Notes under the pieces: model-generated
Told to the model about the DNA's origin: nothing
What the model saw: the letters and a program-made list of their open reading frames with translations, nothing else
Databases searched by the model: none
Source of the DNA: Nitrospirota bacterium
GTDB taxonomy: Bacteria; Nitrospirota; Nitrospiria; Nitrospirales; Nitrospiraceae
Assembly: GCA_026387665.1 (NCBI GenBank)
Contig: JAPLLG010000008.1
Span: forward strand, 1 to 64,000
Length of the DNA stretch: 64,000 nucleotides
Reading direction: 5' to 3'
In this document: piece after piece, positions 1,664 through 24,215 of the stretch
How the letters are laid out: each line of letters starts with the position of its first letter
How positions within the stretch are numbered: the stretch's first letter is position 1
Position numbers and translations under genes: made by a program

Positions 1664-1664
1664 C

Positions 1665-6312: not shown

Positions 6313-6338
6313 GGGGCTGATTCAACACGGATGTGCAG

Positions 6339-9475: not shown

Positions 9476-10656
9476 AACGCTGGCCGACCAAGCCGTTGGG
9501 TGACGTTGCTCAAGTAACTGCTGGCAATCCCGCACCGCAGCGACCTGAAGACTTTGCAGAAGACGGTGTTCCTTTCGTTCGGATGCAAGACGTTGGCAGG
9601 CTGGGACAATCCACCTGCCTCGCTGAAACTAAAGACCGTCTTTCACCATCGGCATCCGTGAGACTGAAACGTTTCCCCGTTGGCTCAATCCTTGTTCCGA
9701 AGAGCGGTGCTTCCATTAGGCTCAACCATCGGGCAATTCTTGGAATCGAGGCTCATGTCGTCAGCCACCTCGCAGTCATCGTCCCGCGTCCATTGCTGAA
9801 TACGCGCTTCGCCTACTATTGGCTCTGTGGAATTGACCTGTCTGGCGTTGCTCACCAAGCAGACCTGCCTTCGATGAAGACTTCGGAGTTAGCGAGGCTT
9901 CAATTACCTGTTCCTCCGCTGGCAGAGCAGGAGCGGCTGGTGAAGCTGCTGGATGAAGCGGACGAGTTGCGGAAGCTGCGCGTCCAAGCCGACAGTTGCA
10001 CCGGCGCCCTCATTCCCGCACTCTTCCACGAAATGTTCGGCGACCCGTTTACCAGCCCCAAGAGCTGGTCTGTTGTGCGAATTGATGAAGCTGGAAAGGT
10101 GCAACTTGGGAGGCAGCGAGCACCAAAATATCAGACAGGAAAGTTCACACGTCCATACGTCCGTGTCGCCAACGTCTATGAGGACGAAATAGATGTTGGC
10201 GATTTGCTCTCAATGGATTTCGATAAGCGAGACTTTGCGCAATACCGGCTTGAGGAGGGAGACATTCTTTTAAACGAAGGCCAGAGCACCGAGCTAGTTG
10301 GCCGACCTGCCATGTGGCGGAATGAAATTGCCGACTGTTGCTTCCAGAACACGCTCGTCCGGTTTCAGCCAGACAGAAAGAGGGTTTTGCCTGACTTCGC
10401 GCTAGCCGTGTTCCTCGCTTATTTCCGAGGAGGCAATTTTGCCAACATCAGCAGCAAGACATCCAACGTTGCACATCTCGGTGCGGCTAGGTTTGCCAAA
10501 ATGCCTTTTCCTCTCCCTCCACTCCCACAGCAAAAAGAGTTTGCCTCCCGCGTGTCCGAAATCCGCACCGTGCAAGCCGAGCAAGCCACCAGCCGCCGCC
10601 GTCTGGACGATCTTTTTCAGTCAATGTTGCATCGTGCCTTTCGGGGAGAATTGTAG
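9472..10656 (+). CDS. hsdS: Type I specificity subunit
   Basis: This 394-residue protein has two target recognition domains (about 1-150 and 195-345), each followed by a conserved helix. The helices are marked by PPLAEQERLVKLLDEADELRK and PPLPQQKEFASRVSEI and set the spacing between the two half-sites. The two-fold architecture and the ATGA overlap with hsdM make the assignment firm. The recognition sequence cannot be read from the protein. No inverted repeats or spare TRD cassettes suggesting phase variation were seen nearby. Confidence 0.9.
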   Translation: MKRWPTKPLGDVAQVTAGNPAPQRPEDFAEDGVPFVRMQDVGRLGQSTCLAETKDRLSPSASVRLKRFPVGSILVPKSGASIRLNHRAILGIEAHVVSHLAVIVPRPLLNTRFAYYWLCGIDLSGVAHQADLPSMKTSELARLQLPVPPLAEQERLVKLLDEADELRKLRVQADSCTGALIPALFHEMFGDPFTSPKSWSVVRIDEAGKVQLGRQRAPKYQTGKFTRPYVRVANVYEDEIDVGDLLSMDFDKRDFAQYRLEEGDILLNEGQSTELVGRPAMWRNEIADCCFQNTLVRFQPDRKRVLPDFALAVFLAYFRGGNFANISSKTSNVAHLGAARFAKMPFPLPPLPQQKEFASRVSEIRTVQAEQATSRRRLDDLFQSMLHRAFRGEL

Positions 10657-10689
10657 GCTGAGATCCATGTTCGCTTGAGGATGGAAACG

Positions 10690-11553
10690 ATGGGACACTT
10701 TACCTTAAATGGAAGAGTAGTGGCAGAAGTGAAAATCGCTCGAGTGCAGGGGCAAGCAGGCCTGGGTGTTTATCGCCTTCTCGTCCATGTCGATCTGATT
10801 TTCATGCGTATGCCAGAAGGGGAGGGCGCAATCCTCCACGGGCTTACAGGTGACTTGCAGATCGAAGGTCGCTATGTCGGCTCACTCAGGTTGTTCCAAG
10901 AATTTGGCCAATTTTCAATTGGGCCATATGAGGGTAGCTTTCCTGTTCTTCTCGTCGCAGATCTCAGCTTACGTCAACTCCAAGCTATTGAGGACCTGCG
11001 ACAAGGAAAAGGGCTCACCATCGGCGTGAATGTCTCTATGACATGCTGGGGAAAACTCCATGGGGGAACTGGATTGCTTCGGGCGTCCAGTGGCTACCTG
11101 TTGCACCAAGTGAACCAAGGTGCCTGGATAGAAGTCCTCAATGAGCTTGGATACCGAAAGATCATGCTTCTTGAGATTCCTGAATTGGCAGAAAGTTTGG
11201 CGCCGGAACTGACGGAGGCGGTAGTTTATATCGGGAAGGCCCAGCAAGCTTTGCATAGAGGAGAGTATCGGGAAGCAGTCGGTTGCTGTCGAGATGTCCT
11301 GGAATCGCTCTCAACTGCTATGGGTGACAGTGACGTCCAAGACGCAGAGTTTCAGGTATTCTTCAAAGATGTTCGGTCAAAAGGCAAAGCAGCAAGACTC
11401 CGTCTCGTTCGGCGCGCTATGAAGATTCTTTCTCATCCCGCTCGGCATGCTGACGAAGTAGCAAGCCAGATCGAGTGGAGCCGTACTGATGCAACGGCAG
11501 TGATTACGATGATAGCAGCGCTGCTTCAACAACTTGGCTCTAAAAAGGTGTGA
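10690..11553 (+). CDS. Unknown protein linked to the hsd operon
   Basis: This protein of about 287 residues is not recognised. ATG 10690 is preferred because GAGG lies nine bases upstream; in-frame TTG 10675 and ATG 10681 are alternatives. The N-terminal two thirds look beta-rich. The C-terminal part (about 175-287) is helical and includes QQALHRGEYREAVGCCRDVLESL, reminiscent of HEPN-like or other helical effector domains. It lies 33 bp after hsdS on the same strand, so it may be the last gene of the restriction operon and could be a defence accessory; that is inference. Confidence 0.6.
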   Translation: MGHFTLNGRVVAEVKIARVQGQAGLGVYRLLVHVDLIFMRMPEGEGAILHGLTGDLQIEGRYVGSLRLFQEFGQFSIGPYEGSFPVLLVADLSLRQLQAIEDLRQGKGLTIGVNVSMTCWGKLHGGTGLLRASSGYLLHQVNQGAWIEVLNELGYRKIMLLEIPELAESLAPELTEAVVYIGKAQQALHRGEYREAVGCCRDVLESLSTAMGDSDVQDAEFQVFFKDVRSKGKAARLRLVRRAMKILSHPARHADEVASQIEWSRTDATAVITMIAALLQQLGSKKV

Positions 11554-12106
11554 GCTTGCGCAAGACGCTAGGAGAGAAAACCGGGTCATTCTATTTTTCG
11601 CGTTTGAAATGAACCTTATCGGCGGCAGGTGGACTCGACCTTACTGCGATGTCGTGAGCGCGTCCAGGCGCGAAAAACGCGACATGGACAGATTGGGTTC
11701 CCACCTCGTTTGGCCCGTCTCGCCTGTCTCGCACGGCTATCCTGCAGGGGGCGTGTTCTGTTCTCCCAGACGTGCAGGCCATCGAATTTCTGATGTGCCG
11801 AAATAGCTTTCCCGCAGCCTGCTAGACTGAAAATTGACTAACGAACAGGAGGAGATAGGGCGCGGCCAAGCTGTTCTCCTTGCTCGTAGAGCCTCCACGA
11901 TAAAGCGGGGGTCGCTCGATGCGCACAACGAGCGACAGCCTGGCCTCTCTCGTGCGAGCGTGAATGGCAAGGCCAGGCAACTACCCCAGCAGTTGATCCC
12001 CTATAGCAAGGCGATTGGAAAGTGTGAGTACAGAATCTGATGCCTACATAGAATGGTTCCATGTCTTTCTTGTGATCCTGGTGTGATCCCTACATCGAGA
12101 CAACTC
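11554..12106. other. Intergenic stretch without a supportable gene
   Basis: Reading frames here are short, lack ribosome sites and show no family resemblance. A frame near 11834 has an AGGAGGAG inside it rather than in front of it. The stretch may hold decayed accessory genes, but no remnant could be identified. Confidence 0.5.
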
Positions 12107-12292
12107 TTAAGTCCTGTCTGGATTTTTGTCCGTCCCTCTGGGTGGTGGGTCTGGCCATGGGTTTGGTGCTTCAACCTTTTGTATTAAGTCTTTTTCTGGC
12201 CTGTCCCATGCATCTCGGTGATCTTTCACGCGCTCTGCCTGCTGTGCCTGTTCTCTATCCTCTTTCTTTCTGTCTTCAGAGTCGGAACTCAT
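12107..12292 (-). CDS. Small charged protein downstream of a two-TM protein
   Basis: This 61-residue protein has a strong AAGGAGG ribosome site seven bases before its ATG, which is the main reason to accept it. The N-terminal half is dominated by Asp, Glu, Lys, Arg and Gln and is probably helical. The C-terminal part is Pro-rich (PNPWPDPPPRG). It starts 12 bp after the two-TM gene on the same strand, so the two form an operon. No family is recognised; a partner or regulator of the membrane protein is a reasonable guess. Confidence 0.6.
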   Translation of the reverse strand: MSSDSEDRKKEDREQAQQAERVKDHRDAWDRPEKDLIQKVEAPNPWPDPPPRGTDKNPDRT

Positions 12293-12304
12293 GACAGTAC
12301 CTCC

Positions 12305-12778
12305 TTAGTTAGTGAGGCCACGTGATTGTAGGACTTCCTTTTGGCTGCGCTTCAAAAGTCGAGCGTTGTGAGGGAGCTTTGTTTCCATTTTTATGAGTTC
12401 ACTTTCTCTTGATTTTGTTGAGTGAAATTCTTTTCCAAGCTCTTCTGGCGGTTGAGCACTCTCAAGCCGCATCCAATAGTTCTCATAATCTCGTTTTGCT
12501 TCCCACCATTTTCCGCTAAGGGTGGAAAGCGACTCTATCGTTCCCTGGTAATTGAGGATTGGTGATACAATTGCGATCAGGGCCGACAAAGCAGAAAAGA
12601 ATTTCCATAGGAATGGAAGGTCTCCCCAAATGGTCCAGGAAGCAACCGTACCAGAAGAGGTGACCGCTAAAAATACTTTTATGGTTCGTTCTCGCTTCAA
12701 ATAACGCTGACAGAGGTATCTCCAGTACCGCACATTCATGTCTGCATCGAGCATGGCTTGCCAAAGATCTTTTCGCAT
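12305..12778 (-). CDS. Two-TM SLATT-like membrane protein
   Basis: This 157-residue protein has a basic N-terminus (RYLKRERTIK), two adjacent membrane helices (about 33-52 and 56-78) and a helical, charged C-terminal half. The layout resembles SLATT-type 2TM effectors, which accompany nucleotide-signalling and other defence systems and are thought to act on the membrane. The assignment rests on topology and size only. The gene is clearly more AT-rich than the surrounding chromosome, as expected for island cargo. No clear ribosome site precedes the ATG. Confidence 0.55.
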   Translation of the reverse strand: MRKDLWQAMLDADMNVRYWRYLCQRYLKRERTIKVFLAVTSSGTVASWTIWGDLPFLWKFFSALSALIAIVSPILNYQGTIESLSTLSGKWWEAKRDYENYWMRLESAQPPEELGKEFHSTKSRESELIKMETKLPHNARLLKRSQKEVLQSRGLTN

Positions 12779-13066
12779 CTAATTTCGCTCAATCACATTG
12801 AGAAGAGTAGTCAAAATAATTGGAGTGTTCAGCACTCGTAAGAAAAGCTACTCTTTAGTCTCATGCTAGTCAACGGCCTATGAAACGTGTCCTGATTTTC
12901 TAGTTCGGGAATCCTTTCTCGCCGTACGGTCCACAGCTTCCTGCCTGAGTGACACGCCCGCTCTAACCAATGTGCCAAGGTTGACCGCTTGCGCCGATCT
13001 CCAGGCTGATCTCGAAGAGGGAACCTCGTCTGACTTATTACTCAGCCTGTGTGTGCCGCGCCATCA

Positions 13067-13183
13067 TCAGTCCGAGACAAGCGCATCCCTGTGCTGTTCG
13101 ATGTGCTTGATGACCTTCTTCGGCAAAGCTCTTTCGGCGAGGCGCAGCTCATAGGTCATCTGCAGATTCATCCAGAATTCAGC
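13067..13183 (-). pseudogene. higA: higA 3' fragment, separated from its 5' half by a transposon
   Basis: The minus strand reads AEFWMNLQMTYELRLAER followed by a short tail and TGA at 13067. This is the classic C-terminal region of HigA-type antitoxins (FWxNLQxxYEL). The matching N-terminal part ends in NTTAEF near 16076. Joining both at the shared GCTGAATT gives a continuous HigA of about 106 residues. The IS1-type element between them explains the split. Confidence 0.85.
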
Positions 13184-13190
13184 GTGTGGG

Positions 13191-14024
13191 TCAGTTTGAA
13201 TCGATCAACGCCACCAACTCTTCCAAGCTCCAGACATGACCGACAATACCAGCTTCCATCGCTGGCGTTACGCGCAATGTCTGATGAATCCGGCAGAAGT
13301 TGTAGTGCATGAAATAGATAGAAATCGCATATAAATGATTCTCGATCTTCTTTGAGAAGGCATTGGTTAACCGAGTGAAGCAACGAATACTCATGCGCAT
13401 TGAGAGATTTTGCCGTTCAGCAAAGCTCGCCGAGGTATGTGCAGGGTCGGGATTGCCTATTACCCGATGGGTACGTGTTCCGCAGCATTCAGCCGGGCGA
13501 TATCGTGTAGTGCCTGTCTGTGATGGCGCGGCATAAATCCTCTCAAGCATGGCATGGCCGGCATCATTCCCAAGCGCTTCCTCAATCGCTTGGAGATAGG
13601 CCTTGTGTCCATCGGTCGTGATCTGAACACGATGCTTGAGGCGATCCGCAAAATCCCTCACAAAACGACAGGCTGTTTCCCCGCTTCGATCTCCGACGAG
13701 CCATGAAACGATGAGTTTGGTATCAGCATCTATGGCCGTCCACGTCCAGACATCACCTGCAATCTCAGGGGCAGCAACAGCACACGGTACATTCTTCACT
13801 TTGGGATATACAAAACTCCAAATATCATCGAGTTGGATTCTTTTGCACGGCAGGTTATGCAGCTTTTGATCCTGATATTCGGAAAAGGCCTGTCCTGCAT
13901 CTGCCAGCAGCTTGACGACGGTATTCTTGCTCGCGCCCGTCATGCGAGAGATTGCGCGAATTGAAACACCCTCAACCAGCATGCCGAGAATTTTGGCTCG
14001 CTTTTCTCTAGATAGCCTGTTCAT
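13191..14024 (-). CDS. IS1-family DDE transposase (single ORF)
   Basis: This 277-residue protein has an N-terminal HTH (REKRAKILGMLVEGVSIRAI, about 7-50). A DDE domain follows with LDDIWSFVYPK (first Asp), VQITTDGHKAY (second Asp) and SFAERQNLSMR (Glu). The HNLPCKRIQLDDIW region and the NPDPAHTSASFAERQ block are typical of IS1-family enzymes encoded without a frameshift. The stop codon lies within the left terminal repeat. A TTGACA on the minus strand at 14056-14061, with CATATG 17 bp further on, is its likely promoter and would give a nearly leaderless mRNA. Confidence 0.85.
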   Translation of the reverse strand: MNRLSREKRAKILGMLVEGVSIRAISRMTGASKNTVVKLLADAGQAFSEYQDQKLHNLPCKRIQLDDIWSFVYPKVKNVPCAVAAPEIAGDVWTWTAIDADTKLIVSWLVGDRSGETACRFVRDFADRLKHRVQITTDGHKAYLQAIEEALGNDAGHAMLERIYAAPSQTGTTRYRPAECCGTRTHRVIGNPDPAHTSASFAERQNLSMRMSIRCFTRLTNAFSKKIENHLYAISIYFMHYNFCRIHQTLRVTPAMEAGIVGHVWSLEELVALIDSN

Positions 14025-14068
14025 GAGTCAAGCATATGACTCTTAATCTCTTAAGTGTCAAGCATAAA

Positions 14069-14078
14069 GGTCAGTTTG
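14069..14078 (+). repeat. Internal copy of the terminal repeat core
   Basis: GGTCAGTTTG, the core of the 15-bp transposon ends, recurs here in the same orientation as the left end. It lies between the transposase and cargo genes and touches the operator palindrome at 14076. It may be a transposase binding site or a scar of how the cargo was captured. Confidence 0.5.
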
Positions 14079-14129
14079 CCAAAATTGGCAAGTTTAGCCT
14101 TGACACGGTTTGGCTGTTTGGCATAGCAT
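14076..14129 (+). promoter_or_regulatory. Promoter and palindromic operator of the XRE-M78 operon
   Basis: TTGCCAAAATTGGCAA (14076-14091) is a perfect 16-bp palindrome. It is followed by a consensus -35 TTGACA (14100-14105), an 18-bp spacer containing further TTTGGC half-sites, and -10 TAGCAT (14124-14129). The palindrome is a likely binding site for the HTH domain of the first gene, giving autoregulation. The predicted transcription start falls at the ATG of 14137, so the mRNA may be leaderless. Confidence 0.65.
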
Positions 14130-14136
14130 GATGGCC

Positions 14137-15279
14137 ATGCACGCAGACAATAACTATAGAACACCAGGGCAACTCATTGAAGAGCTGTTGATTTTACGGG
14201 GGTGGTCTAAGCGTGTCTTGGCCATTGTGCTGGGGATTGATGAGACCGTCATTAGCAAGATCATTTCTGGCAAAAAGGCAGTGGATGCCGATTTTGCCTT
14301 GTTGGTTGGAGATGTTTTTAGTACTCCTGCTGAGAAGTTTCTTGAACTTCAAAAGGTATATGACCTGGCCCAAGCTCGCATCATCGCACGTCCAGATCCG
14401 GGCCGTGCAACTCGCGCTCATCTCTTTGGGGATTTGCCGGTTTCAGAAATGATTAAGCGTGGCTGGCTAGACGCTGATGATATTCGCAATGTGCCAAAGG
14501 TTGAAGCAGCTCTTACAAAGTTTTTCGGCGTGAACTCAGTTAACGAGATAGAAGTTCTTCCCCATGCTGCCAAGAAAACAAGTACGTTCACGCCTGCGAC
14601 CTCCGTTCAACTCGCATGGATTTATCGAGTGAAGGAGATCGCAAGTGAGATGCTCGTTGCACGATATTCCACGGCTGGAGTACGTGATGCGGTGAACCGC
14701 CTTAACCTGCTGCTTTCCGCGCCTGAAGAGGCTCGTAAAGTTCCTCGCATTCTCGCCGAATGCGGCATCCGATATGTCATTGTTGAGTCTCTTACATCCG
14801 CTAAAATTGATGGCGTATGCTTTTGGTTGAATGACCACTCTCCCGTTATTGGTATGTCCTTGCGCCATGATCGGATTGACAATTTTTGGTTCGTCCTCCG
14901 ACATGAGATTGAACACGTTTTGCGACAGCACGGGCAGGCTTCCATTATGCTGGATGCCGAACTTGAAGGAGAGCGCGCTGGCACTGGGCCCAACATTTCA
15001 GAAGAAGAGCGCGTTGCCAATGAAGCGGCAGCAAACTTCTGCGTACCCCAGCAATCTCTAGCACGCTTTATCGCTCGCAAATCTCCATTTTTCAATGAGC
15101 GGGACATTCTGGGATTTGCAAAGACCCTAGACATTCATCCAGGGCTCGTCGCAGGACAGTTGCAGCGCCAAACAGGTAGGTATGATCGCTTCCGTCAACA
15201 TCTTGTGAAAATTCGATCTGTCGTCGCGCCGAGCGCCCTGGTGGATGGCTGGGGCGATATTGCACCAGTGGGAATTTAG
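14137..15279 (+). CDS. XRE-family HTH and M78 (ImmA/IrrE) metallopeptidase fusion
   Basis: This protein of about 380 residues starts with a HigA-like helix-turn-helix (about 10-65, with GIDETVISKIISGKKAV). Its C-terminal peptidase domain carries the zinc motif HEIEH at about 256-260, followed by EERVANEAAANFCVP. Proteins of this class act as antitoxins or as regulators whose repressor is cleaved by the M78 domain. ATG 14137 fits the promoter; in-frame starts lie upstream at 14128 and 14131. It is the first cargo gene of the transposon, 9 bp before the 160-residue gene, and is less GC-rich than its surroundings. Confidence 0.8.
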   Translation: MHADNNYRTPGQLIEELLILRGWSKRVLAIVLGIDETVISKIISGKKAVDADFALLVGDVFSTPAEKFLELQKVYDLAQARIIARPDPGRATRAHLFGDLPVSEMIKRGWLDADDIRNVPKVEAALTKFFGVNSVNEIEVLPHAAKKTSTFTPATSVQLAWIYRVKEIASEMLVARYSTAGVRDAVNRLNLLLSAPEEARKVPRILAECGIRYVIVESLTSAKIDGVCFWLNDHSPVIGMSLRHDRIDNFWFVLRHEIEHVLRQHGQASIMLDAELEGERAGTGPNISEEERVANEAAANFCVPQQSLARFIARKSPFFNERDILGFAKTLDIHPGLVAGQLQRQTGRYDRFRQHLVKIRSVVAPSALVDGWGDIAPVGI

Positions 15280-15288
15280 GGGGAACCT

Positions 15289-15771
15289 ATGGGAACAAAA
15301 AATCAAGAGAGACAGAGATTTATCCGTTTCTACAAGGAGCAGACGGGTAATAAAGAAGTTGATATGCATCAGGTCGCAAAGTTTGCAGCCCTGAATGGAT
15401 GGAAGCTTCCGACCCCTCCCGATCCGCTCGATATGCTAGCCAAGGAATTTACACAGTCCGCACGCGAAGAAGTCCGATACGACAAGAAGACCAATAGGCC
15501 ATATCGAGCGAACCATGCCATCGCTATTACACAAGGCAGCCAGCAGCTATATCTCTGGATTGATATTGATGAAGCTGAACGAAAGCCGATGCTTAAGAGC
15601 TTAGTCCAACGACGTGAACAGATGGTCGGTGATGCCTATCATCTCACCCTAGATGCTGATCACTGGAATAGCATCCATCAAGACGAAGAGCCTATTACTA
15701 TGCCCCTTGATTTCTTGGACGATGTTAACTGGCGAAAGAATGGTCCTGACGAAGCAGCGAAGGCGAGCTAG
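15289..15771 (+). CDS. Unknown 160-residue partner of the XRE-M78 protein
   Basis: This soluble 160-residue protein starts 9 bp after the XRE-M78 gene with GGGGG in front of its ATG, so the two are co-transcribed. The N-terminal segment (QRQRFIRFYKEQTGNKEVDMHQVAKFAALNGW) resembles a helical DNA- or protein-binding region. The rest is mixed alpha/beta with a conserved-looking YRANHAIAITQ and ends acidic. No family is recognised. By position it could be the toxin or effector controlled by the antitoxin-like partner. It overlaps the convergent small gene by 4 bp. Confidence 0.65.
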   Translation: MGTKNQERQRFIRFYKEQTGNKEVDMHQVAKFAALNGWKLPTPPDPLDMLAKEFTQSAREEVRYDKKTNRPYRANHAIAITQGSQQLYLWIDIDEAERKPMLKSLVQRREQMVGDAYHLTLDADHWNSIHQDEEPITMPLDFLDDVNWRKNGPDEAAKAS

Positions 15772-16007
15772 CGGCTCTTTTCCCACCGTGCATTAGCGGC
15801 GATCCTCGCAATTTCAACTCGCTGCTCAGGGGGTAAATTCTTGGCCCGAGCCGCACCACCTTTGAGACCTCCAATGCGCCCCAATTCAGAGGCGGCAGCA
15901 TTCTTGCCATTCTCCACCTGATCCTCAGTCTGACCTGTGGCTATGTCGCCTATGAGCTTCGCGAGCTGTATGGGATCGCGTGGGCGCTTCTTGCGTTTGA
16001 CTGCCAT
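15768..16007 (-). CDS. Small basic RPRDPxQLAKLI-type protein
   Basis: This 79-residue protein begins MAVKRKKRPRDPIQLAKLIGDIATG, continues with SELGRIGGLKGGAARAKNL and ends IARIAANARWEKSR. This is a common but uncharacterised bacterial family with a Gly-rich GGLKGGxAR motif and a highly basic character, suggestive of nucleic-acid binding. It is encoded opposite to the XRE-M78 operon, just inside the right terminal repeat of the transposon. Its role as cargo is unknown. Confidence 0.75.
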   Translation of the reverse strand: MAVKRKKRPRDPIQLAKLIGDIATGQTEDQVENGKNAAASELGRIGGLKGGAARAKNLPPEQRVEIARIAANARWEKSR

Positions 16008-16047
16008 GCGGAAATGATAGCATGGTGCGAAGCTTAAATCTTAGAGG

Positions 16048-16287
16048 TCAAATTTCAAACTGACCCACTACCAAAAATTCAGCTGTGGTGTTGAAAAACG
16101 TCGCCAGACACACCGCGGCATCGCCCGTGATACCACGCTGTCCCTTAATAATTGCCGTCACACAATTCGCGGGAACTTCGAGGGCCTTGGCAAGCCTATG
16201 GGCGTTGATCGGCAGGTCTGCTGGCGTCATAAACTCCTCGAACAGGATTTCTCCGGGATGGACCGGACGCATTCCGTTCTTGATCAT
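16048..16287 (-). pseudogene. higA: higA 5' fragment truncated by transposon insertion
   Basis: The frame encodes RPVHPGEILFEEFMTP, the typical start of HigA antitoxins, and an intact XRE helix-turn-helix to NTTAEF. It then runs into transposon end sequence (LVVGQFEI) and stops at 16048. The normal FWMNLQ continuation sits at 13067-13183 beyond the insertion. The 79-residue product keeps its DNA-binding part and could still bind its operator. Its ATG overlaps the TGA of the upstream XRE antitoxin, and GGAGAA lies seven bases before it. Confidence 0.85.
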
Positions 16288-16661
16288 GGCATTTTCTCCG
16301 ATCGAGATACCGCTAACGTGCTCGATCGTCTCGATACCTTCGTGCGGACTGTGCCGAATCGCTGTCCACGCGGAGCTCGACGCACAGTGACTTCTACATC
16401 TTGGCCCAACAAGGAGAGGAAGTGAACGAGACGTTCGACCGAGAACCCGGCCATCTGGCCGGCGAGTAGCTTAGAGATCTTGGCTTGGTCAATGCCGAGT
16501 TGGGTTGCCGCTTCTGCCTGCTTCCAGCCTCGTTCCCTGATGGTCTCCTGAAGCGCCTGCAATAAACTGCTTTTCAGAATCAGTTCCGCGGATCGTTCTT
16601 CCGAAAACCCAAGGTCTCGAAAGATATTTCCACTGCCTTTCGTCACAGTGGCGCGTTTCAT
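16284..16661 (-). CDS. XRE-family antitoxin (HTH_37 type)
   Basis: This antitoxin of 125 residues starts at ATG 16661, which overlaps the toxin TGA and has AAGG just upstream. It has the GSGNIFRDLGFSEE N-terminus and the helix-turn-helix RGWKQAEAATQLGIDQAKISKLLAG (about 45-75) typical of antitoxins paired with Gp49-like toxins, followed by FSVERLVHFLSLLGQDVEV. The C-terminal tail of about 30 basic residues is longer than usual and could come from shifted or acquired sequence. It should bind the toxin and repress the operon promoter. Confidence 0.82.
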   Translation of the reverse strand: MKRATVTKGSGNIFRDLGFSEERSAELILKSSLLQALQETIRERGWKQAEAATQLGIDQAKISKLLAGQMAGFSVERLVHFLSLLGQDVEVTVRRAPRGQRFGTVRTKVSRRSSTLAVSRSEKMP

Positions 16662-16996
16662 AGGCCTTCTTCCCTTCTCCACTTGAGCAGATCAGCATAT
16701 CGGCTCTTTCCGAATTCTAGGTCAGCCCTCGCCGTCTTCTGTGAACGCTTCTCAAACACATGGAGGACATGCACGGCTTCTTCGAACTTGGCCACATAGA
16801 AGACTCGATAGGCCCCGTTTTCATCCCGAACCCTGATTTCACGGACTCCTGATCCGACACCCGGCATCGGTTCACAATCATCCGTTTCTTTTCCCTGCTG
16901 GACTTTGAATAGCTGAAAGCCAGCCGTTTCCTGTGCGCTGTCCGGAAGTTTGCGAATATTCTTCCGTGACGTTCCGACAAAATGAATCGGCTTCAT
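16658..16996 (-). CDS. RelE/HigB-superfamily toxin (Gp49-like)
   Basis: This toxin of 112 residues starts MKPIHFVGTSRKNIRKLP. It includes the conserved core VREIRVRDENGAYRVFYVAKFEEAVHVLHVFEKRSQKT of phage-derived Gp49/HigB-like proteins, probable ribosome-dependent mRNA interferases. ATG 16996 is chosen because the -10 element at 17022-17027 places the transcript start downstream of the alternative ATG at 17050. It precedes its antitoxin, the reverse order common in this family, with a 4-bp overlap. Confidence 0.82.
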   Translation of the reverse strand: MKPIHFVGTSRKNIRKLPDSAQETAGFQLFKVQQGKETDDCEPMPGVGSGVREIRVRDENGAYRVFYVAKFEEAVHVLHVFEKRSQKTARADLEFGKSRYADLLKWRREEGL

Positions 16997-17021
16997 CTCC
17001 TCTACGAGGCCATCTCGTGCT

Positions 17022-17050
17022 ATGTTATGCCATATTTGGCATATACGCAA
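17022..17050 (-). promoter_or_regulatory. Toxin-antitoxin promoter with operator in the spacer
   Basis: On the minus strand TTGCGT (-35, 17045-17050) and TAACAT (-10, 17022-17027) are separated by 17 bp. The spacer is occupied by the inverted repeat TATGCCA-TATT-TGGCATA (17026-17043). A repressor bound there would block RNA polymerase, which fits autoregulation by the XRE antitoxin. Confidence 0.65.
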
Positions 17051-17256
17051 GAGACTAGCTGAAGTTAGATTGGCGGACCGTTTCAGGCCTTTTGAGGTCC
17101 AAAGTGCTGTGCTAAATTTGTGCTAAAAATTTTCAAAACAGATCGAATTCTTCAGAATCAATCGAATCAGTAGAAACCGCTCAAGCCCTTGCTTGCAAAG
17201 ATAAAACGGGGAAACCTTCGCAATATCAAGCCGTTGATATTATTTGCCTTTTAGCA

Positions 17257-17301
17257 CTTTTAAGGCGAGGGTCCTGGGTTCGACCCCCAGCCGGCTCACC
17301 A
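17257..17301 (+). other. 3' half of tRNA-Lys(UUU): putative island attachment site
   Basis: The sequence starts with a complete Lys anticodon loop CTTTTAA. It continues with a 5-nt anticodon stem strand GGCGA, variable loop GGGTC, a paired T-arm (CTGGG-TTCGACC-CCCAG), acceptor strand CCGGCTC and ACCA. The expected 5' stem and D-arm are absent; upstream bases do not pair. Integrases that use tRNA genes cross over in the anticodon loop and leave exactly such a 3' fragment at the far end of the island. Confidence 0.8.
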
Positions 17302-17444
17302 AGAGTCCATAGGTGATAAGGTTTCCCTCCCGTTTCCCTGCGTGCCGCCGGCTAAAATCAACATTAGCGTCTTGACCTCCCTCCGCGGTTGTAGCACTGT
17401 GGGCTGCGCTTCTGAAGAAAATCGTAAGAACGAATGGCCATGCA

Positions 17445-19382
17445 TTGAGCACTAAGGCGGTTGAACTCACTCATCCCCCCTATCGTGCGGATATTGACGG
17501 GTTGCGGGCGATAGCCGTGCTCGCTGTTGTCGCCTTTCACGCGTTCCCCAGCTCGATCCAGGGCGGCTTTATCGGCGTCGATGTCTTTTTCGTCATCTCC
17601 GGTTTTTTAATCTCCACGATCATTTTTGAAAATCTGGAGCGCAGCAGCTTCAGTTTCGTCGAGTTCTATAGCCGCCGCATCAAACGGATATTCCCGGCGC
17701 TCCTTGTGGTTTTTGTCGCGAGCTTTGCATTCGGCTGGTTTGCATTGTTTGCCGATGAATACAAGCAGCTGAGCAAACATATCGTGCGCGGAGCCCTGTT
17801 CATTTCGAACTTTGCCCTGTGGCGGGAATCCGGCTACTTCGATAACAGCGCTGAGACGAAGCCATTGCTCCACTTATGGTCGCTGGGTATTGAAGAGCAG
17901 TTTTACATTCTCTGGCCGCTGTTGCTGTGGTGCGCGTGGAAGCGGCGGTTCAATCTGCTGTTCGTAACTCTAGTCGTCACCGCCATCTCCTTCGCTTTCA
18001 ATATTTGGAAGGCCAATAGCGACGTGGTCGCCGCGTTCTACTCTCCGCAGACCCGGTTCTGGGAGCTGTTGAGCGGTTCTTGTTTGGCCTATGTGGCGCT
18101 CTTCAAGCCGCGCGTCTTGCAGCAATGCAAGATCGGCAGTAACAGTCTGCAATCGTGTTGCGGAGCGGCGCTTCTTGTGGCCGGTGTCGTGTTCATCACG
18201 AAAGAACGGGCGTTCCCCGGTTGGTGGGCCTTGCTGCCAACGGTCGGCGCGGTGCTGATTATTTCGGCCGGCGCGCAGGCCTGGTTCAATCGCGCCGTGC
18301 TCTCCCATCGCCTGCTGGTGTGGTTCGGCCTGATCAGCTTTCCTCTCTATCTCTGGCATTGGCCCCTGCTCGCATTTGCACGGGTCATCGAAAGCGAAAC
18401 GCCTGTAGTCGAGGTGCGGCTTGCAGCCGTGTTCATCTCCATAGTGCTGGCTTGGTTGACCTATCGATTGATCGAGCGGCCTGTGCGATTTGGCAAGCCT
18501 GGCAGGGCACGAGTCATCGTGTTGATGGTGTTGATGCTTGCCGTGGGACTCGTCGCTGGCCTCAACCAGGAGAAGGGCGGGTTGTTATGGAAAGAGGGCA
18601 TGAGTCCGCAAGAGATTAAAAACGATGGCGATATCGGGCAGGATCAGTTTCATGAATATGTTGGCCGCACGTTTTATCCCTGCACGCCGGTCAGTATCCG
18701 AAACGAAGCCGTGCAGTTGAACGGATCTGTCAGATGTTTCCAGTCCCGCAAGGATACCCATGTCGATCTCGCCATTATCGGCGATAGCCATGCGGAACCT
18801 TTGTTTCTAGGGCTCGCAGAAGCGCTCCCTGGTATGAACGTGGTCTATTACTTTAGGACGAGCCTGCCCTTCACGAGCTATCACGAGTTTGAGCATATCT
18901 TCAGCCATGTAGTCGGGGATGAACGTCTTCGCACGGTAATTCTGTCGGCGAAGTGGAGTGGAAACGGGCGGACGGGATTGATGATGGACCGCGGCAAGTT
19001 CAGAGATGAATTAGCGGCAACGATTGACCTGCTCACTACCGCCCATAAAGCCGTGTACGTCACAGACGATGTCCCGAATTTCACGTTCGACCCGCCGAAG
19101 TGCAAGTACGAGAGAATGTTTAGCCGGACAAGTGCCTGCGCCGAAAGCCGCAGCTATTTCTTTCGCCAGTATGAAACCTATTATCCCATTCTTGAGTCCG
19201 TGGTGCTCACGAACGGGCAGGCGGAAATTTTGCACACCGTCAAATACTTTTGCGACGACAAGCTCTGTACGATGGCGAAGGACGGACAGTTGCTGTACCG
19301 GGATCGAAACCATTTGAACATTAATGGCTCAAAATATTTAGGGCACATGATCGTCAAAGATGCCCCGGATTTCCCGAGATAA
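17445..19382 (+). CDS. Membrane O-acyltransferase with SGNH domain (OafB/OatA type)
   Basis: This 645-residue protein starts with the acyltransferase-3 signature RADIDGLRAIAVLAVVAFHAF and a run of about 10-11 membrane helices (to about residue 365), including SLGIEEQFYILWPLLL. A C-terminal SGNH hydrolase-like domain follows, with the GDSH block (AIIGDSHAEPL) and a late DRNHLN Asp-His pair. Such enzymes acetylate lipopolysaccharide O-antigen or other surface sugars. The TTG start is the only in-frame choice before the first conserved block and lacks a good ribosome site. It is the first core gene after the island. Confidence 0.85.
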   Translation: MSTKAVELTHPPYRADIDGLRAIAVLAVVAFHAFPSSIQGGFIGVDVFFVISGFLISTIIFENLERSSFSFVEFYSRRIKRIFPALLVVFVASFAFGWFALFADEYKQLSKHIVRGALFISNFALWRESGYFDNSAETKPLLHLWSLGIEEQFYILWPLLLWCAWKRRFNLLFVTLVVTAISFAFNIWKANSDVVAAFYSPQTRFWELLSGSCLAYVALFKPRVLQQCKIGSNSLQSCCGAALLVAGVVFITKERAFPGWWALLPTVGAVLIISAGAQAWFNRAVLSHRLLVWFGLISFPLYLWHWPLLAFARVIESETPVVEVRLAAVFISIVLAWLTYRLIERPVRFGKPGRARVIVLMVLMLAVGLVAGLNQEKGGLLWKEGMSPQEIKNDGDIGQDQFHEYVGRTFYPCTPVSIRNEAVQLNGSVRCFQSRKDTHVDLAIIGDSHAEPLFLGLAEALPGMNVVYYFRTSLPFTSYHEFEHIFSHVVGDERLRTVILSAKWSGNGRTGLMMDRGKFRDELAATIDLLTTAHKAVYVTDDVPNFTFDPPKCKYERMFSRTSACAESRSYFFRQYETYYPILESVVLTNGQAEILHTVKYFCDDKLCTMAKDGQLLYRDRNHLNINGSKYLGHMIVKDAPDFPR

Positions 19383-19476
19383 TCAGTTCACGCCTGTTTG
19401 GTTGGCTTCCTAGTATTTCAGCTTGACAGGGCCTGTCAGCCCGCGTTACGTATCACTGTTGATAAGTCAGTAACCT

Positions 19477-19650
19477 CTCGGATGCCCGTAAGGGCGAAAA
19501 AGGGAAGTCCGGTGAAAATCCGGCGCGGTCCCGCCACTGTAAGTGGGAAGCACCCCCTGTTTCAGCCACTCGACGACCTCGTCGGGGAAGGTTGGGGGAA
19601 GCGTTGAAGGTCCGACCTTCTGAACCTGCGAGCCAGGAGACCTATCCGAG
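19477..19650 (+). ncRNA. Cobalamin riboswitch 1 (before cbiX operon)
   Basis: The P1 stem CTCGGAT (19477-19483) pairs with ATCCGAG (19644-19650). Between them are GGGAAGTCCGGTGAAAATCCGG, the B12-box-like GCCACTGTAA and the conserved GAGCCAGGAGACC at 19630-19642, all hallmarks of the cobalamin aptamer. It should bind adenosyl- or another cobalamin and shut down the downstream biosynthesis operon when the vitamin is abundant. Confidence 0.93.
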
Positions 19651-19713
19651 ATGACATGGCATTGTTTCTCCGCGCGGTAACACGGAGGATCTCTCCTGCC
19701 TTTTGGGCAAGCG

Positions 19714-19749
19714 ACCTCTCGTTCCTGTTGTGGAGCCGGAGGTTTTTTT
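19714..19749 (+). terminator. Riboswitch expression-platform terminator
   Basis: ACCTCTCGTTCC and GGAGCCGGAGGT form a 12-bp stem with one mismatch and a TGTTGT loop, followed at once by seven T. Its place between the aptamer and the cbiX start indicates transcriptional control by riboswitch 1. Confidence 0.8.
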
Positions 19750-19784
19750 ATGCCTGCAGCATGGCCCGGGTCGGTCCCTGTCGC

Positions 19785-20966
19785 ATGACCACGGGATTGC
19801 TCATCGTCGGGCATGGCAGCCGCGATCCCAATGCCAATGCCGAGTTCGAGTCCTTGGTGGCGACCTATCGCGCGGCGCGTCCCGATCTCGATGTGGCGCA
19901 CGGCTATGTGGAGCTGGCTCGCCCGTCGCTGGCTGACGCCCTTCGCGAGCTGGCGCAACGGACCGATTCGGTGGTCGTGCTGCCGCTATTTCTCTTTGCC
20001 GCTGGGCATGTGAAGAACGATATTCCTCTCGCGTTGGCGCAGGCCCGGCAGGATTTCCCTGCCGTTCGTTTTACCGTGGCCAACGCCCTGGGTGTCCATC
20101 CCAATCTCGTGGAGCTGGCGTTCGAGCGGGCGAGGGCATCGCTGGAAGGTGTCCGCGAGTTTGCGAAGACTGCCGTCGTGGTCGTGGGCCGCGGCGCCAG
20201 CGATCCGGACGCGAACGGGGATTTTTGCAAAGTTGTGCGCCTCCTTGCCGAAGGGCGCGAGATCGGGTGGGTGGTGCCTTGCTTCGTCGGCGTCACGAGA
20301 CCGCTATTCGAGGACACGGTGGAACTGGTCGCCCGTTCGCGTCCCGAACGGATCGTCGTGGTGCCCTATTTTCTCTTCGGCGGGCGGCTGATCACTCAGA
20401 TTCGCGAACAGGTGGAATCGTTTCAGGCTCGCTATCCCTGGATCAAGACTGAGCTCGCGCCTCATTTGGGAATCGACGATCGTTTGATCACGCTAATGGA
20501 TGAGCGGCTCCATGAAGCGATGGAGGGAGAACGTCCGCTTCCCTGCGACACCTGCCAATATCGCGTGCCTGTGTCCGCCGTGACCGGGAAGGTGGGAGGG
20601 CTCAAAGCGCTGCTCTGGAGTCTACGGCACGGATTCACCCATGCGCAGGCTATGCCGCACGTCCATGCCCATCGTCCGCTTGCCAAACATGTGCTGGTCT
20701 GCGGGAATGCCGATTGCGCCGATGCCGGGAGCATCACGTTGATTGCCACCTTGCGGCGGCTGATCAAGGAAACGGGCCGCGAGCTGGATATCCGGGTGAC
20801 GAAGACTTCGTGCATGGGCCGCTGCGGAGAGGGTCCGACGGTGGCGGTCTATCCGGACGGCATCTGGTACCGGGGCGTGAAAGAGACGGATGCCAAGGAA
20901 TTGATCGAGGAGCATCTGCTGGGCGATCGGCTGGTCAGTCGCCTGGTCGACAACATTATGCAGTAA
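19785..20966 (+). CDS. cbiX: Sirohydrochlorin cobaltochelatase fused to a [2Fe-2S] ferredoxin-like domain
   Basis: This protein of about 393 residues has two CbiX/CbiK-type half domains. The N half carries the chelatase motif GHGSRDPN (metal-binding His10), and the second half includes VVGRGASDPDAN and PYFLFGGRLI. It inserts cobalt into sirohydrochlorin, the step that commits to the early-cobalt (anaerobic) B12 route. Residues from about 305 on form a thioredoxin-like [2Fe-2S] domain with CGNADC and TSCMGRCGEGP. ATG 19785 places the motif at the usual distance; ATG 19761 is an alternative. Both lie after the riboswitch terminator. Confidence 0.9.
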   Translation: MTTGLLIVGHGSRDPNANAEFESLVATYRAARPDLDVAHGYVELARPSLADALRELAQRTDSVVVLPLFLFAAGHVKNDIPLALAQARQDFPAVRFTVANALGVHPNLVELAFERARASLEGVREFAKTAVVVVGRGASDPDANGDFCKVVRLLAEGREIGWVVPCFVGVTRPLFEDTVELVARSRPERIVVVPYFLFGGRLITQIREQVESFQARYPWIKTELAPHLGIDDRLITLMDERLHEAMEGERPLPCDTCQYRVPVSAVTGKVGGLKALLWSLRHGFTHAQAMPHVHAHRPLAKHVLVCGNADCADAGSITLIATLRRLIKETGRELDIRVTKTSCMGRCGEGPTVAVYPDGIWYRGVKETDAKELIEEHLLGDRLVSRLVDNIMQ

Positions 20967-20979
20967 CGGAGGAGAGACG

Positions 20980-21354
20980 ATGGCCTGTCATGAGATCGCA
21001 GGGCTGCGGTTGGGGTTGATGGACATACTCGGAATCAAGAATGAAGCAGAGCGGCAGCACGAGCTGTCCGAGCTGGGGACCGGGGCCGATCAACCGGGAC
21101 CGATTCGTTCTATGTGCGGGGCCAAGGATTTGGCGTCGCTCAAGCAATTTTATGAAGGCGCGGTGTCCGCGCTGGAGCAGCGCGTGTCCGCGACACGTCC
21201 CGACGATCCGAAGCTGCCGTACTTGCGTACCCTCATTGTGCTGACGAAGAAGGTCGAGCTCGACCTGACGCATCAGATCGAGGGGCTCATGCATCTCTAC
21301 CGCGATCTCGACGAGATGCATGATTTTGTCCATGAGATTTATCCAGCCGGGTAG
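20980..21354 (+). CDS. DUF3209 family protein
   Basis: This 124-residue, mostly helical protein has MACHEIAGLRLGLMDILG at the start and GPIRSMCGAKDLASLKQFYEGA in the middle, matching the DUF3209 family often found beside cbiX in cobalamin loci. Its function is unknown; conserved Cys, His and acidic residues would allow metal or cofactor binding. A GGAGGAGA ribosome site precedes it, 13 bp after cbiX, and it is 5 bp before the reductase-like gene. Confidence 0.75.
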   Translation: MACHEIAGLRLGLMDILGIKNEAERQHELSELGTGADQPGPIRSMCGAKDLASLKQFYEGAVSALEQRVSATRPDDPKLPYLRTLIVLTKKVELDLTHQIEGLMHLYRDLDEMHDFVHEIYPAG

Positions 21355-21359
21355 ACACG

Positions 21360-22085
21360 ATGGCTGTGGCGAAGACGGCTCATGTGGTGGGAACCGAGAG
21401 GCTGGGGCCCGATACCCTGCTCCTCGATCTCTGCGCGACCGAGCCCTTGGGGTTCGTCGGCGGACAGTACCTCATCCTCGACAGCCGAATTATTTTGCCG
21501 AGCGGCAAGGCCGTGAAGCGGGCCTATTCGTTTCTCACCGGCGATGCGGAACAACTGCGTTTTCAGCTCGCAGTGAAGCGCATCCCCGAGGGATTGGGTT
21601 CCGCCTTTGTGCATGGGCTGACAGCTGGGACGGATATTTCGTTCAGCGGGCCTTGGGGCAAGTTCTGTCCGAGAGAGGGGGCTTCCGGCAGGACTCTGAT
21701 CCTGGCGACTGATACAGGGATTACCGCCGCGCTGGGGTTTGTGCGCGCAACCCGCTTTGCGCCGCTGCTGCCTCAGACCCTGCTCATCTGGCTGCGAACC
21801 TCGGAAGAATATTTTCTTCCGGAAGAGTTTGTGAGGGGGCAGATTCCTGCCGCATGTGGCGAGGTGAGGATTGAAGCGATCCCTGCGGTCAGTCATCAAG
21901 ACAGGATTCCTCAGGCCAGAGCCATTCTCCATGAGGTGTTGTCGCGCGGCGATCTTACCCAGGCCTTCATCGCGGGCGATGGAGCCGTGAATCAGGCGCT
22001 GCTCGAGGATCTGGTAATTGCCGGAGTAGCCGTGGACAAGGACCAGGTGGAATCGTTTTTCAATATGCCGAAGAAATCCGCATGA
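21360..22085 (+). CDS. Ferredoxin reductase-like (FNR-fold) oxidoreductase in the B12 operon
   Basis: This 241-residue protein has an FAD-binding barrel (with GQYLILDSRI and RAYSFLTG, the RxYS flavin motif, at about 60-63) and a nucleotide-binding domain (ILATDTGITAALGFVRA, about 118-135). It probably transfers electrons between NAD(P)H and a partner, perhaps the ferredoxin-like domain of CbiX or a corrin intermediate. Since no CbiJ/CobK is seen in this locus, it is a candidate for the missing corrin-ring reductase, purely by context. It overlaps the next gene by 4 bp. Confidence 0.75.
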   Translation: MAVAKTAHVVGTERLGPDTLLLDLCATEPLGFVGGQYLILDSRIILPSGKAVKRAYSFLTGDAEQLRFQLAVKRIPEGLGSAFVHGLTAGTDISFSGPWGKFCPREGASGRTLILATDTGITAALGFVRATRFAPLLPQTLLIWLRTSEEYFLPEEFVRGQIPAACGEVRIEAIPAVSHQDRIPQARAILHEVLSRGDLTQAFIAGDGAVNQALLEDLVIAGVAVDKDQVESFFNMPKKSA

Positions 22086-22459
22086 CCGGACGGGAGCAGA
22101 TTCTCTCAGCGCTGGAAGCAGCGCTTGCGTATGGGGATACAAGCGTCATCGTCCGTTCGTCCGGTGCGATTGCCGAGGTCCATGGGCTCGTGGTCCTGCG
22201 GCAGGGGACCGAGTGGGTCACACTTGGCGAAGAGGGCCAGACCCATGTGCATCTCAAGATTGAAGATGGAAGCAGGCTGATCTATCGGCAGCAGGACGAG
22301 GCGAATGTGGCGCTTGAGTTAATAGGGGCGGATGGGGCTTTGCTCTGTCGCATGTCGTTCCGGGGCACGAACCGGGCGAAGACAGAGAATTACAGCTCTG
22401 AACGTGCGGCGAAGATCCGTGAGCGTTTCGGTGGTTTGGCGGAAGGTGCTGGTACATGA
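22082..22459 (+). CDS. Unknown 125-residue protein in the cobalamin operon
   Basis: This soluble 125-residue protein overlaps its neighbours on both sides by ATGA, so it is an integral part of the operon. The middle is beta-rich (THVHLKIEDGSRLIYRQQDEANVALELI) and the C-terminus is helical (SSERAAKIRERFGGL). The fold pattern is slightly reminiscent of ChuX/HutX heme-binding proteins, but no family can be named with confidence. Handling of a tetrapyrrole intermediate is a possible role from context. Confidence 0.65.
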   Translation: MTGREQILSALEAALAYGDTSVIVRSSGAIAEVHGLVVLRQGTEWVTLGEEGQTHVHLKIEDGSRLIYRQQDEANVALELIGADGALLCRMSFRGTNRAKTENYSSERAAKIRERFGGLAEGAGT

Positions 22460-23568
22460 GCATGGACAAGAGCGTACCGCCAAAAGATCGGAAGGGGCTG
22501 CGGACCGGATTTACCACCGGCGCATGCGCCGCGGCTGCGGCTAAGGCTGCGACCCGTTGTCTCGTGAAGGGCTCCATGCTGTCTGAAATTGAAACGACCC
22601 TGCCGAATCGGGCGAGAGTCACATTCGCCCTTGCCCGTTGCGAGCGTCTGGACGGCCGCGTGGTTTGCAGCATCATCAAGGATGCAGGCGACGATCCCGA
22701 CTGTACCCATGGGGCCGAGTTGACGGCAGAAGTGGAGCTGCGCACCGAGCCTGGTATCGAGATTAGGGGAGGCCTGGGTGTCGCCACCGTCACCAAGACC
22801 GGCTTGGGTTTGGAGATTGGCGGGCCTGCGATCAATCCGGTTCCGCGGCGCAACATTACGGAGATGGTGGGAGAAGAACTTGCCGGCGCTTCCTACGGGG
22901 GCGCGGTCGTGACGATCAGCGTGCCTGGCGGCGAAGAGATGGCCAAGAAGACCACCAACGCGCGGCTCGGTCTCCTGGGTGGCATCTCTATCCTCGGTAC
23001 GACCGGCATCGTGAGGCCCTATTCCACGGCGGCCTTTAAGGCGAGCGTGATGCAGGAGATCGATGTCGCAGCGGCTGGCGGCTTGCGCGAACTGGTGCTC
23101 ACGACCGGAGGCAAGTCGGAACAGTATGCGATGGCCCTCTATCCTCATTTGGCGGAACAGGCCTTTATCCAGGTGGGCGACTTCATCGGCGTTGGAATCA
23201 AACAATGTGCGAAGCGAGGGATTGCGCGAGCCATCATCGTCGGGATGATGGGGAAACTCTCGAAGATGGCCAACGGTAAGATGCAGACCCATGTGGCGGG
23301 ATCGGAAGTGGATATGGAGTTTCTGGCTTCGCTGGCAGTCGAGTTGTCCGCATCGGAGGAGTTGGTGGCGGCCATCCGCCAGGCCAATACAGCCCGCCAT
23401 GTGCTTGAGTTATGCCGCGAGGCTGGTCTCGTCGGTATTACGTCGCTGATTTGCAAGAAGGTCGTCGAACATTGTCAGGGCCACGCGGGCGGCAAGCTGG
23501 CAGTGGAAACCTGTCTGGTGGATTTTGGCGGCTCGTTGCTCGGTCGTTACCCGGAGGTTCATACATGA
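22456..23568 (+). CDS. cbiD: Cobalt-precorrin-5B (C1)-methyltransferase
   Basis: This 370-residue protein contains the CbiD signature GLRTGFTTGACAAAAAKAA (about 15-33), then GGLGVATVTKTGLGLEIGGPAINPVPR and GTTGIVRPYSTAAF. CbiD methylates C1 of the corrin ring during ring contraction in the early-cobalt pathway and is absent from the oxygen-dependent route, so it defines the pathway type here. It is linked by 4-bp overlaps to the unknown gene before it and cbiC after it. Confidence 0.95.
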   Translation: MSMDKSVPPKDRKGLRTGFTTGACAAAAAKAATRCLVKGSMLSEIETTLPNRARVTFALARCERLDGRVVCSIIKDAGDDPDCTHGAELTAEVELRTEPGIEIRGGLGVATVTKTGLGLEIGGPAINPVPRRNITEMVGEELAGASYGGAVVTISVPGGEEMAKKTTNARLGLLGGISILGTTGIVRPYSTAAFKASVMQEIDVAAAGGLRELVLTTGGKSEQYAMALYPHLAEQAFIQVGDFIGVGIKQCAKRGIARAIIVGMMGKLSKMANGKMQTHVAGSEVDMEFLASLAVELSASEELVAAIRQANTARHVLELCREAGLVGITSLICKKVVEHCQGHAGGKLAVETCLVDFGGSLLGRYPEVHT

Positions 23569-24215
23569 ATGATATGAGACAGATGACCGCGCTCGGGCGG
23601 AGCATCGAGGATGGTAGTTTCGCGATCATCGACCAGGAGGCAGGTCCGCACGATTTCGGCCAAGATGAATGGCAGGTCGTGCGCCGGGTGATCCATGCTA
23701 CGGCGGACTTCGAGTTTAAGACCCTGATGCGATTTCATCCCGACGCGGTGCGCGCCGGGGTGGCGGCCCTTCAAGGAGGCTGTCCCCTTTTGGTCGATGT
23801 GAAAATGATTTCCGCCGGCCTGAACGAGGAGCGGCTCTCTTCCTACGGCTGCAAGGTCTATTCGTTTATTTCGGATGAGGATGTGATCTCGACGGCTAAG
23901 GCCAACAACTCGACTCGCGCGATCGAGGCCATGAAAAAGGCCCATCGCCTCAACCTGCTCGATGGAGCGGTGGTGGCGATCGGCAATGCCCCGACGGCGT
24001 TATTGGAGCTGGCTCGCCTAGTTCGCGAGGAGAATGCGAAGCCGGCTCTCATCATCGGGGTGCCGGTCGGGTTTGTGTCGGCGGCTGAGTCCAAGGAAGT
24101 CACGCTGGAACTCTCGACTCCCTCTATCGTGGCCCGCGGCCGCAAGGGGGGCAGCCCCATCGCCGTCGCGATCATCCATGCCCTGTTGCTCCTCTCGGCA
24201 AAGGCTCCTGCATGA
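23565..24215 (+). CDS. cbiC: (Cobalt-)precorrin-8X methylmutase
   Basis: This protein of 216 residues starts at ATG 23565, which overlaps the cbiD stop. It has the family blocks ADFEFKTLMRFHPDAV, LVDVKMISAGL and AIGNAPTALLEL, with the catalytic His in VIHATADFEF. It moves the methyl group from C11 to C12 to give hydrogenobyrinate or cobyrinate. The length is normal for CbiC/CobH. Confidence 0.94.
   Translation: MNDMRQMTALGRSIEDGSFAIIDQEAGPHDFGQDEWQVVRRVIHATADFEFKTLMRFHPDAVRAGVAALQGGCPLLVDVKMISAGLNEERLSSYGCKVYSFISDEDVISTAKANNSTRAIEAMKKAHRLNLLDGAVVAIGNAPTALLELARLVREENAKPALIIGVPVGFVSAAESKEVTLELSTPSIVARGRKGGSPIAVAIIHALLLLSAKAPA

Follow-up and report, generated by a model that had tools for sequence, protein, structure and literature searches.

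Crossover positions within tRNA genes were reportedly sorted into sublocations by Williams in 2002, with subsite A corresponding to the anticodon loop.

Islands that target tRNA genes, including those whose crossover falls in the anticodon loop, are a known class (PMC4383910; PMC8371274), and a published model takes the anticodon loop as the overlap region (PMC8371274). Filamentous phages provide a second point of comparison. The Pf phages of Pseudomonas aeruginosa, 7.3-13 kb in size, show a complete correlation of integrase type with tRNA site, and integration of their prophages (Pf-tRNA-Gly, Pf-tRNA-Met and others) into a tRNA gene leaves a fragment of 27 or 46 bp (PMC7549136). The cryptic inoviruses of Roux et al. 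(2019) have Zot/pI, a small coat protein, a Rep initiator and an att repeat in a tRNA gene; the element described here has the last two and would have the first two in an assembly gap. Nitrospira is not named in that paper's main text.

The window analysed here is a 64,000-nt stretch of a Nitrospirota genome (assembly GCA_026387665.1, here G000; 2.64 Mb in 14 contigs), taken from base 1 of contig C8 (JAPLLG010000008.1). With a probability of about 95%, we read its positions 17257-17301 as the attR of a ~21.1-kb tyrosine-integrase inovirus-type prophage, or inovirus-derived island, in the tRNA-Lys(TTT) gene beside purA of a Nitrospira chromosome. Like Islander-class islands of the anticodon-loop subsite A (PMC4383910), it has a regenerated tDNA, a 3′ fragment in the same orientation, an integrase gene beside the tDNA and an anticodon-loop crossover, and there is no mechanistic difference between them. 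It resembles the Pf prophages in layout, combining inovirus genes with its own tyrosine integrase and a putative excisionase in a tRNA gene. It differs from them in that its family has a host of another phylum and more tRNA targets, and in that the island is much larger and carries type I restriction-modification (RM) and toxin-antitoxin (TA) cargo. This cargo is of the type I RM and HigBA-like defence kind, in which Pfam and PADLOC identify HsdR, HsdM, HsdS and a Gp49/HTH_37 pair, although the RM operon departs from the usual type I arrangement by an embedded AlbA_2 ATPase. Neither an island at this site in Nitrospira nor a described inovirus for the genus was found in the literature searched. 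The kind of event is already known; interest lies in the genus of the host, the type of phage and the family with its retargeted members.

The fragment and its intact counterpart

Positions 17257-17301 (+) read CTTTTAAGGCGAGGGTCCTGGGTTCGACCCCCAGCCGGCTCACCA and contain, in order, the 7-nt anticodon loop CTTTTAA, the 3′ strand of the anticodon stem (GGCGA), the variable loop, the T arm, the acceptor strand and CCA. They are the displaced 3′ 45 nt of tRNA-Lys(TTT), the attR core, identical over 45 bp to C9:1643-1687(-) and joined to the 5′ half of the tRNA at the empty sites of two relatives, G015 and G020. No tRNA was called here by ARAGORN, whose sole call in the window is a tRNA-Glu, and a search of 15000-19500 against Rfam gave zero matches even at E≤1. 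An earlier note on this DNA had described the 45 bp as the 3′ half of tRNA-Lys(UUU), running from the anticodon loop to CCA without a 5′ half; the identity with the intact gene and the lack of an ARAGORN or Rfam match agree with that description.

The first 27 bases of the fragment, searched with up to three mismatches, occur at two sites genome-wide, window 17257 and an intact tRNA-Lys(TTT) at G000:C9:1643-1718(-); the reversed pattern, used as a control, gave 0 sites. Identity between the two copies extends over exactly 45 bp, with a mismatch at the adjoining base on both sides, so that the coordinates 17257-17301 are exact, and in a genome of 2.64 Mb an exact match of 45 bases excludes chance. 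No further copy of the tRNA-Lys(TTT) gene was found in G000; the candidate at C2:2-76 (75 bp, 84% to tRNA-Lys) was ruled out as a tRNA-Arg(TCT).

Since contig C8 itself begins at the left edge of the window, the other end of the island lies on a separate contig, C9. From its start, C9 carries an HTH_17/excisionase-like gene (PHROG 66), the adjoining full-length tyrosine integrase gene at C9:541-1635 (+) (PF00589, 2e-36; catalytic R-K-HxxR-H-Y motifs readable), the intact tRNA-Lys(TTT) on the minus strand, 1.6 kb into the contig, and purA. The 3′ end of the tRNA gene faces the integrase, whose stop falls 8 bp short of it. The earlier prediction for the DNA beyond the left edge was an intact tRNA-Lys(TTT) sharing the same 3′ 45 bp, together with a nearby tyrosine integrase; the former was found at C9:1643-1718(-), and the latter adjoins it in the orientation expected if reverse-complemented C9 precedes C8. 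Read in this order, the contigs give the standard layout of host purA, regenerated tRNA, integrase, element, displaced fragment and host. The element is flanked by the intact tDNA and its cognate 3′ fragment in the same orientation, with the contig order taken from synteny with the relative G017, and the integrase gene lies within the element beside the tDNA. Elsewhere in the genome, a broken integrase pseudogene with two stops lies at the start of another contig (G000:C13:164-535).

Empty sites and right flank

Two relatives keep an empty attB. In G015 and G020 the end of purA, an intact tRNA-Lys and window flank 17302-17458 form one continuous alignment of ~500 bp (88% in G015, 87% in G020), joined at the 45-bp core. 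The flank at 17302-17458 (+), directly joined to the intact tRNA-Lys in both, is the host DNA that followed tRNA-Lys before insertion and forms the right flank of attB. The only island sequence found in either genome is a 43-bp piece of a dispersed repeat, in G015. A second pair, G002 (occupied) and G010 (unoccupied), concerns the same tRNA-Lys and a different island of 4.3 kb.

The boundary proposed in the earlier note could have been challenged by the lack of an intact tRNA-Lys copy or by the same fragment in relatives without an island. The intact copy exists, G015 has no displaced fragment among the matches listed, and the extra copy in G020 is on another contig in a different context. That copy (G020:C6:95298-95342), an exact 45-bp match present despite the empty tRNA-Lys site, is without the conserved attR arm; a stretch with homology to window 19409-19805 lies ~6 kb away from it.

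The view that everything to the right is core genome held in part. Positions 17302-17458 are kept where the site is empty, and the acyltransferase and cobalamin genes right of the fragment occur in G010 at 90-94%, but G015 and G020 are without 17459-30055 here. Because the blocks 17459-30055 and 30956-54561 (acyltransferase, cobalamin cluster and others) are missing at this place in both genomes, insertions or deletions particular to certain lineages have also affected the right flank.

Gene content and size of the island

Left of 17257 the genes are accessory, as had been supposed: prophage, type I RM, transposase and TA-like genes. The phage genes lie on the minus strand. At the contig start, which cuts it, is a small membrane protein (1-273) resembling the minor virion protein pVI, with 89% identity over 91 aa to a G017 protein that itself matches PHROG minor head protein families. 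A Thr/Ser-rich putative pIII-like (adsorption/minor coat) protein (270-1526) has no Pfam or PHROG match and is named from its position and make-up, 39-52% similar proteins standing between Rep/SSB and pVI/Zot in relatives. The 99-aa protein at 1761-2060, for which there is no family match, is called ssDNA-binding-like (SSB-like) by position, with 91% identity to a G017 protein between Rep and the pIII-like protein. The rolling-circle replication initiator Rep, one of the marks of an inovirus, is present at 2218-3207 (Pfam Rep_trans PF02486, 6.4e-38; PHROG 453 replication initiation protein), with an HTH_17 regulator upstream of rep at 3247-3501 (PF12728, 1.9e-10).

The remaining ~13.7 kb is cargo. 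On the plus strand it begins with HsdR (3895-6312; Pfam ResIII/HSDR_N, PADLOC REase_I 5.8e-61), the AlbA_2/Schlafen-domain ATPase (6333-7847; PF04326, PF13749), the methyltransferase HsdM (7898-9475; PF02384 4.2e-57, PADLOC MTase_I 3.5e-141) and the specificity subunit HsdS (9472-10656; PF01420, PADLOC Specificity_I 1.7e-78). An IS-type DDE transposase follows at 13191-14024 (-), with marginal scores to Pfam DDE_Tnp_IS240/IS1, and then an HTH and IrrE/ImmA-like peptidase at 14110-15279 (+) (PADLOC PD-Lambda-2_B 1.3e-42; PF06114). Of the components of a full PD-Lambda-2 system, this B-like gene is the only one recognised. Nearest the fragment is a HigBA-like pair on the minus strand, an HTH_37 antitoxin-like protein (16284-16682; PF13744, 4.8e-23) and a HigB/Gp49-like toxin (16658-17050; PF05973, 5.3e-22). 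This gene content marks the prophage part as an inovirus-type module, the remainder being defence-rich cargo. Window 11665-11957 is a dispersed non-coding repeat, short stretches of which recur at tens of sites in related genomes (notably G007) and at few in G000.

The contig ends C8:1 and C9:1 do not overlap. In the relative G017 an island of 38.8 kb at the same tRNA-Lys, sharing integrase, phage module and attR arm with the one described here, lies inside one contig, and its homology to C9:1-1490 and window 1-3307 sets C9:1 and C8:1 ~2.25 kb apart. The G017 interval matching the gap encodes the inovirus ATPase Zot/pI (PF05707, 1.1e-24), RadC and a small coat protein whose PF05356 match is weak (0.00031, under the curated cut-off). 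No zot was found anywhere in the G000 assembly, an absence that we attribute to the ~2.25-kb assembly gap. Going by this synteny, C8 and C9 are probably adjacent across the gap, which would hold the Zot/pI, coat and RadC genes. The island then measures ~1.64 + 2.25 + 17.26 = 21.1 kb, the middle term being an estimate from G017. As 21 kb exceeds usual inovirus sizes, the cargo may be a later addition. Contigs of two metagenome-assembled genomes (MAGs) break at the same base within the phage module (G000:C9:1 and the end of G007:C152, 157410), perhaps through identical phage sequence common to strains in one sample.

Attachment arms

The 7-nt anticodon loop CTTTTAA (17257-17263, +), at which the identity starts here, just as displaced fragments start in the anticodon loop in 18 islands at various tRNAs, is the presumed 7-bp strand-exchange (overlap) region under the published model (PMC8371274), and the exact cleavage points are likewise predicted. 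In the attR arm, the tandem TGTGCTAAATT/TGTGCTAA at 17108-17126 (+) is a motif that recurs in displaced copies, and GGGGAAACC at 17208-17216 (+) is a conserved element that recurs near the crossover. The tandem TGTGCTAAATTTGTGCTAA (TGTGCTAAAt motif) was found inside attR, 148-150 bp from the crossover, in 22/38 displaced or attachment copies, the others being mostly divergent arm variants (e.g. Val islands) or other kinds of junction. Of 79 integrase loci, 54 carry it in the same orientation at the 3′ end of the integrase gene, and its frequency in random 260-mers is 0.9%. G000 has it at window 17108 and, as an exact second copy, at C9:1583(-). Between arm and core, GGGGAAACC lies no more than 90 bp from the crossover in 31/38 copies, compared with 1.5% of random pieces. 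From this recurrence the tandem motifs are candidate arm-type sites at which the integrase would bind, and GGGGAAACC is a possible accessory-protein site. The conserved attR arm was also considered as a hairpin origin or packaging signal and rejected, its DNA folding being no more stable than that of shuffles (z 0.11).

Integrase family and tRNA retargeting

At least 179 relatives of the integrase were confirmed, and 80 of them, mostly from Nitrospira, were taken for analysis; a search of IMG/VR with the integrase gave one distant match only. The make-up of this set, together with the relatives named here, assigns the window to Nitrospira. ARAGORN, applied to the integrase loci, places tRNA genes tail-to-tail with the related integrases. 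At ≥75% integrase identity the neighbour is tRNA-Lys(TTT) in 14 of 18 loci, at 62-65%, where there is enough flank, it is tRNA-Gly(GCC), and in the remaining loci it is an Arg, Val, Thr, Lys(CTT), Ala, Pro or Met tRNA gene. Integrase clade tracks tRNA identity, with 15 label changes on the maximum-likelihood tree against 31-40 with shuffled labels, and the window's integrase belongs to a fully supported clade in which all labelled rows are Lys(TTT).

In the family's small complete islands, which span 4.1-10.6 kb and occupy Lys, Gly, Thr, Arg, Val, Ala and Met tRNA genes, the first base of the displaced fragment falls at tRNA nt 29-33, in the anticodon loop, in 18/18 cases. The same 45-bp geometry is seen in a 4.67-kb island at tRNA-Lys of N. 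defluvii FP929003. An inovirus-type Rep is encoded in 9/18 of the small islands, and tblastn with the G017 proteins found no Zot or coat genes in any of the 18, a search that divergent virion genes could escape. The nine with Rep, L090, L092, L099, L108, L120, L121, L126, L133 and L139, are complete at 4-10 kb and combine it with an integrase and a displaced tRNA fragment, but have no recognisable Zot or coat. Zot and coat accompany the same integrase family in the fuller elements L071, L073, L075, L076, L109, L111, L115 and L123, and the small Int-Rep islands could be satellites of full inoviruses. We offer as a tentative picture, and one we think rather doubtful as a whole, a Nitrospira inovirus-related family with one integrase/att architecture (tandem TGTGCTAAAt arms on both sides, 148-150-bp spacing) and many tRNA switches, whose 4-10 kb Int/HTH/often-Rep members without recognisable virion genes are perhaps satellites, replicated and packaged with full inoviruses using the same arms, and in which the window's island is a full member loaded with RM and TA genes.

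Some loci depart from the simple arrangement. In L078, L080 and L132 the integrase is accompanied by a tRNA-Lys 45-bp copy with non-tRNA sequence on its 5′ side, and in L078 (UBC2) the copy, at 3850384, is 1.3 Mb from the intact tRNA-Lys at 2533623; these are either secondary-site insertions or rearrangements between att copies. Tandem island arrays at tRNA-Lys were seen in G067 (NOB1; C6:215628, 223801 and 252969), G062:C143:14971-15015 and G066:C10:24055-24099; at the internal junctions of these arrays the sequence is what an attP would have. Circular contigs were rejected for G062:C143 and G066:C10, which have no terminal overlap, so that their attP-like junctions are read as tandem arrays. 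Neither excision nor a circular form was seen for the window's island. The contig G066:C10 (L074), a Nitrospira-type island contig in a MAG labelled Mesorhizobium sp. ACE_PRO30, is probably mis-binned.

Origin of the fragment

In the integration that we favour, the element's attP would have included a tRNA 3′ half belonging to the element itself. Insertion into the single tRNA-Lys(TTT) gene, by strand exchange within the 7-bp anticodon loop CTTTTAA, would have restored an entire tRNA-Lys at the left end (C9:1643-1718) and left the host's former 3′ half displaced at the right end (17257-17301). The element would thus run from tRNA-Lys through the integrase, the excisionase-like HTH, a ~2.25-kb gap (RadC, major coat and Zot/pI expected), the pVI-like, pIII-like and SSB-like proteins, Rep, HTH and ~13.7 kb of cargo to attR, and it may be mobile at present. 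The duplication, the intact tRNA, the integrase, the empty sites, the phage genes in the window and the conserved att arms are all observed.

A tRNA pseudogene, arisen by duplication or retro-copying without site-specific integration, might also have no 5′ half, as tRNA pseudogenes may. Yet the break coincides precisely with the anticodon loop, a position shared with 18 other islands, the integrase and intact tRNA are in register, the flanking arm is conserved, and the empty-site alignment in sister species refutes this origin, to which we give practically no credence. The perfect conservation of the fragment against the intact tRNA might instead suggest a gene for a functional small RNA or tRNA-derived fragment, retained for a regulatory role, but such identity is expected from attB/attP recombination, there is no Rfam match and no excess structure (z -0.92), and this too is most improbable. 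Accretion of at least two elements, an inovirus prophage beside the tRNA and an older defence island that lost its own phage and integrase and owns the attR at 17257, is unlikely but carries more weight. Tandem cases are frequent in relatives, with three collinear 45-bp copies in NOB1 and attR-arm/45 bp/attL-arm junctions in G062:C143 and G066:C10, and a 13.7-kb cargo is larger than most phage cargo. Against accretion, the attR arm motif exactly matches the motif at the 3′ end of the present integrase, and window 1-17107 contains no internal 45-bp core or arm motif, which favours a single element, with later gain of cargo possible. The exact duplication, the intact tRNA-Lys, the integrase and the empty sites in G015 and G020 uphold the earlier note's central proposal, that the fragment marks an island boundary.

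Significance

The boundary defines precisely where a filamentous-phage island with defence genes starts and ends in Nitrospira, a main nitrifier genus. The att architecture, a tRNA-specific core with conserved arms, permits delimitation of such islands across the genus, and the integrases, retargeted among many tRNA genes while the arms stay constant, form a natural series that can serve as a test set for specificity change in tyrosine integrases.
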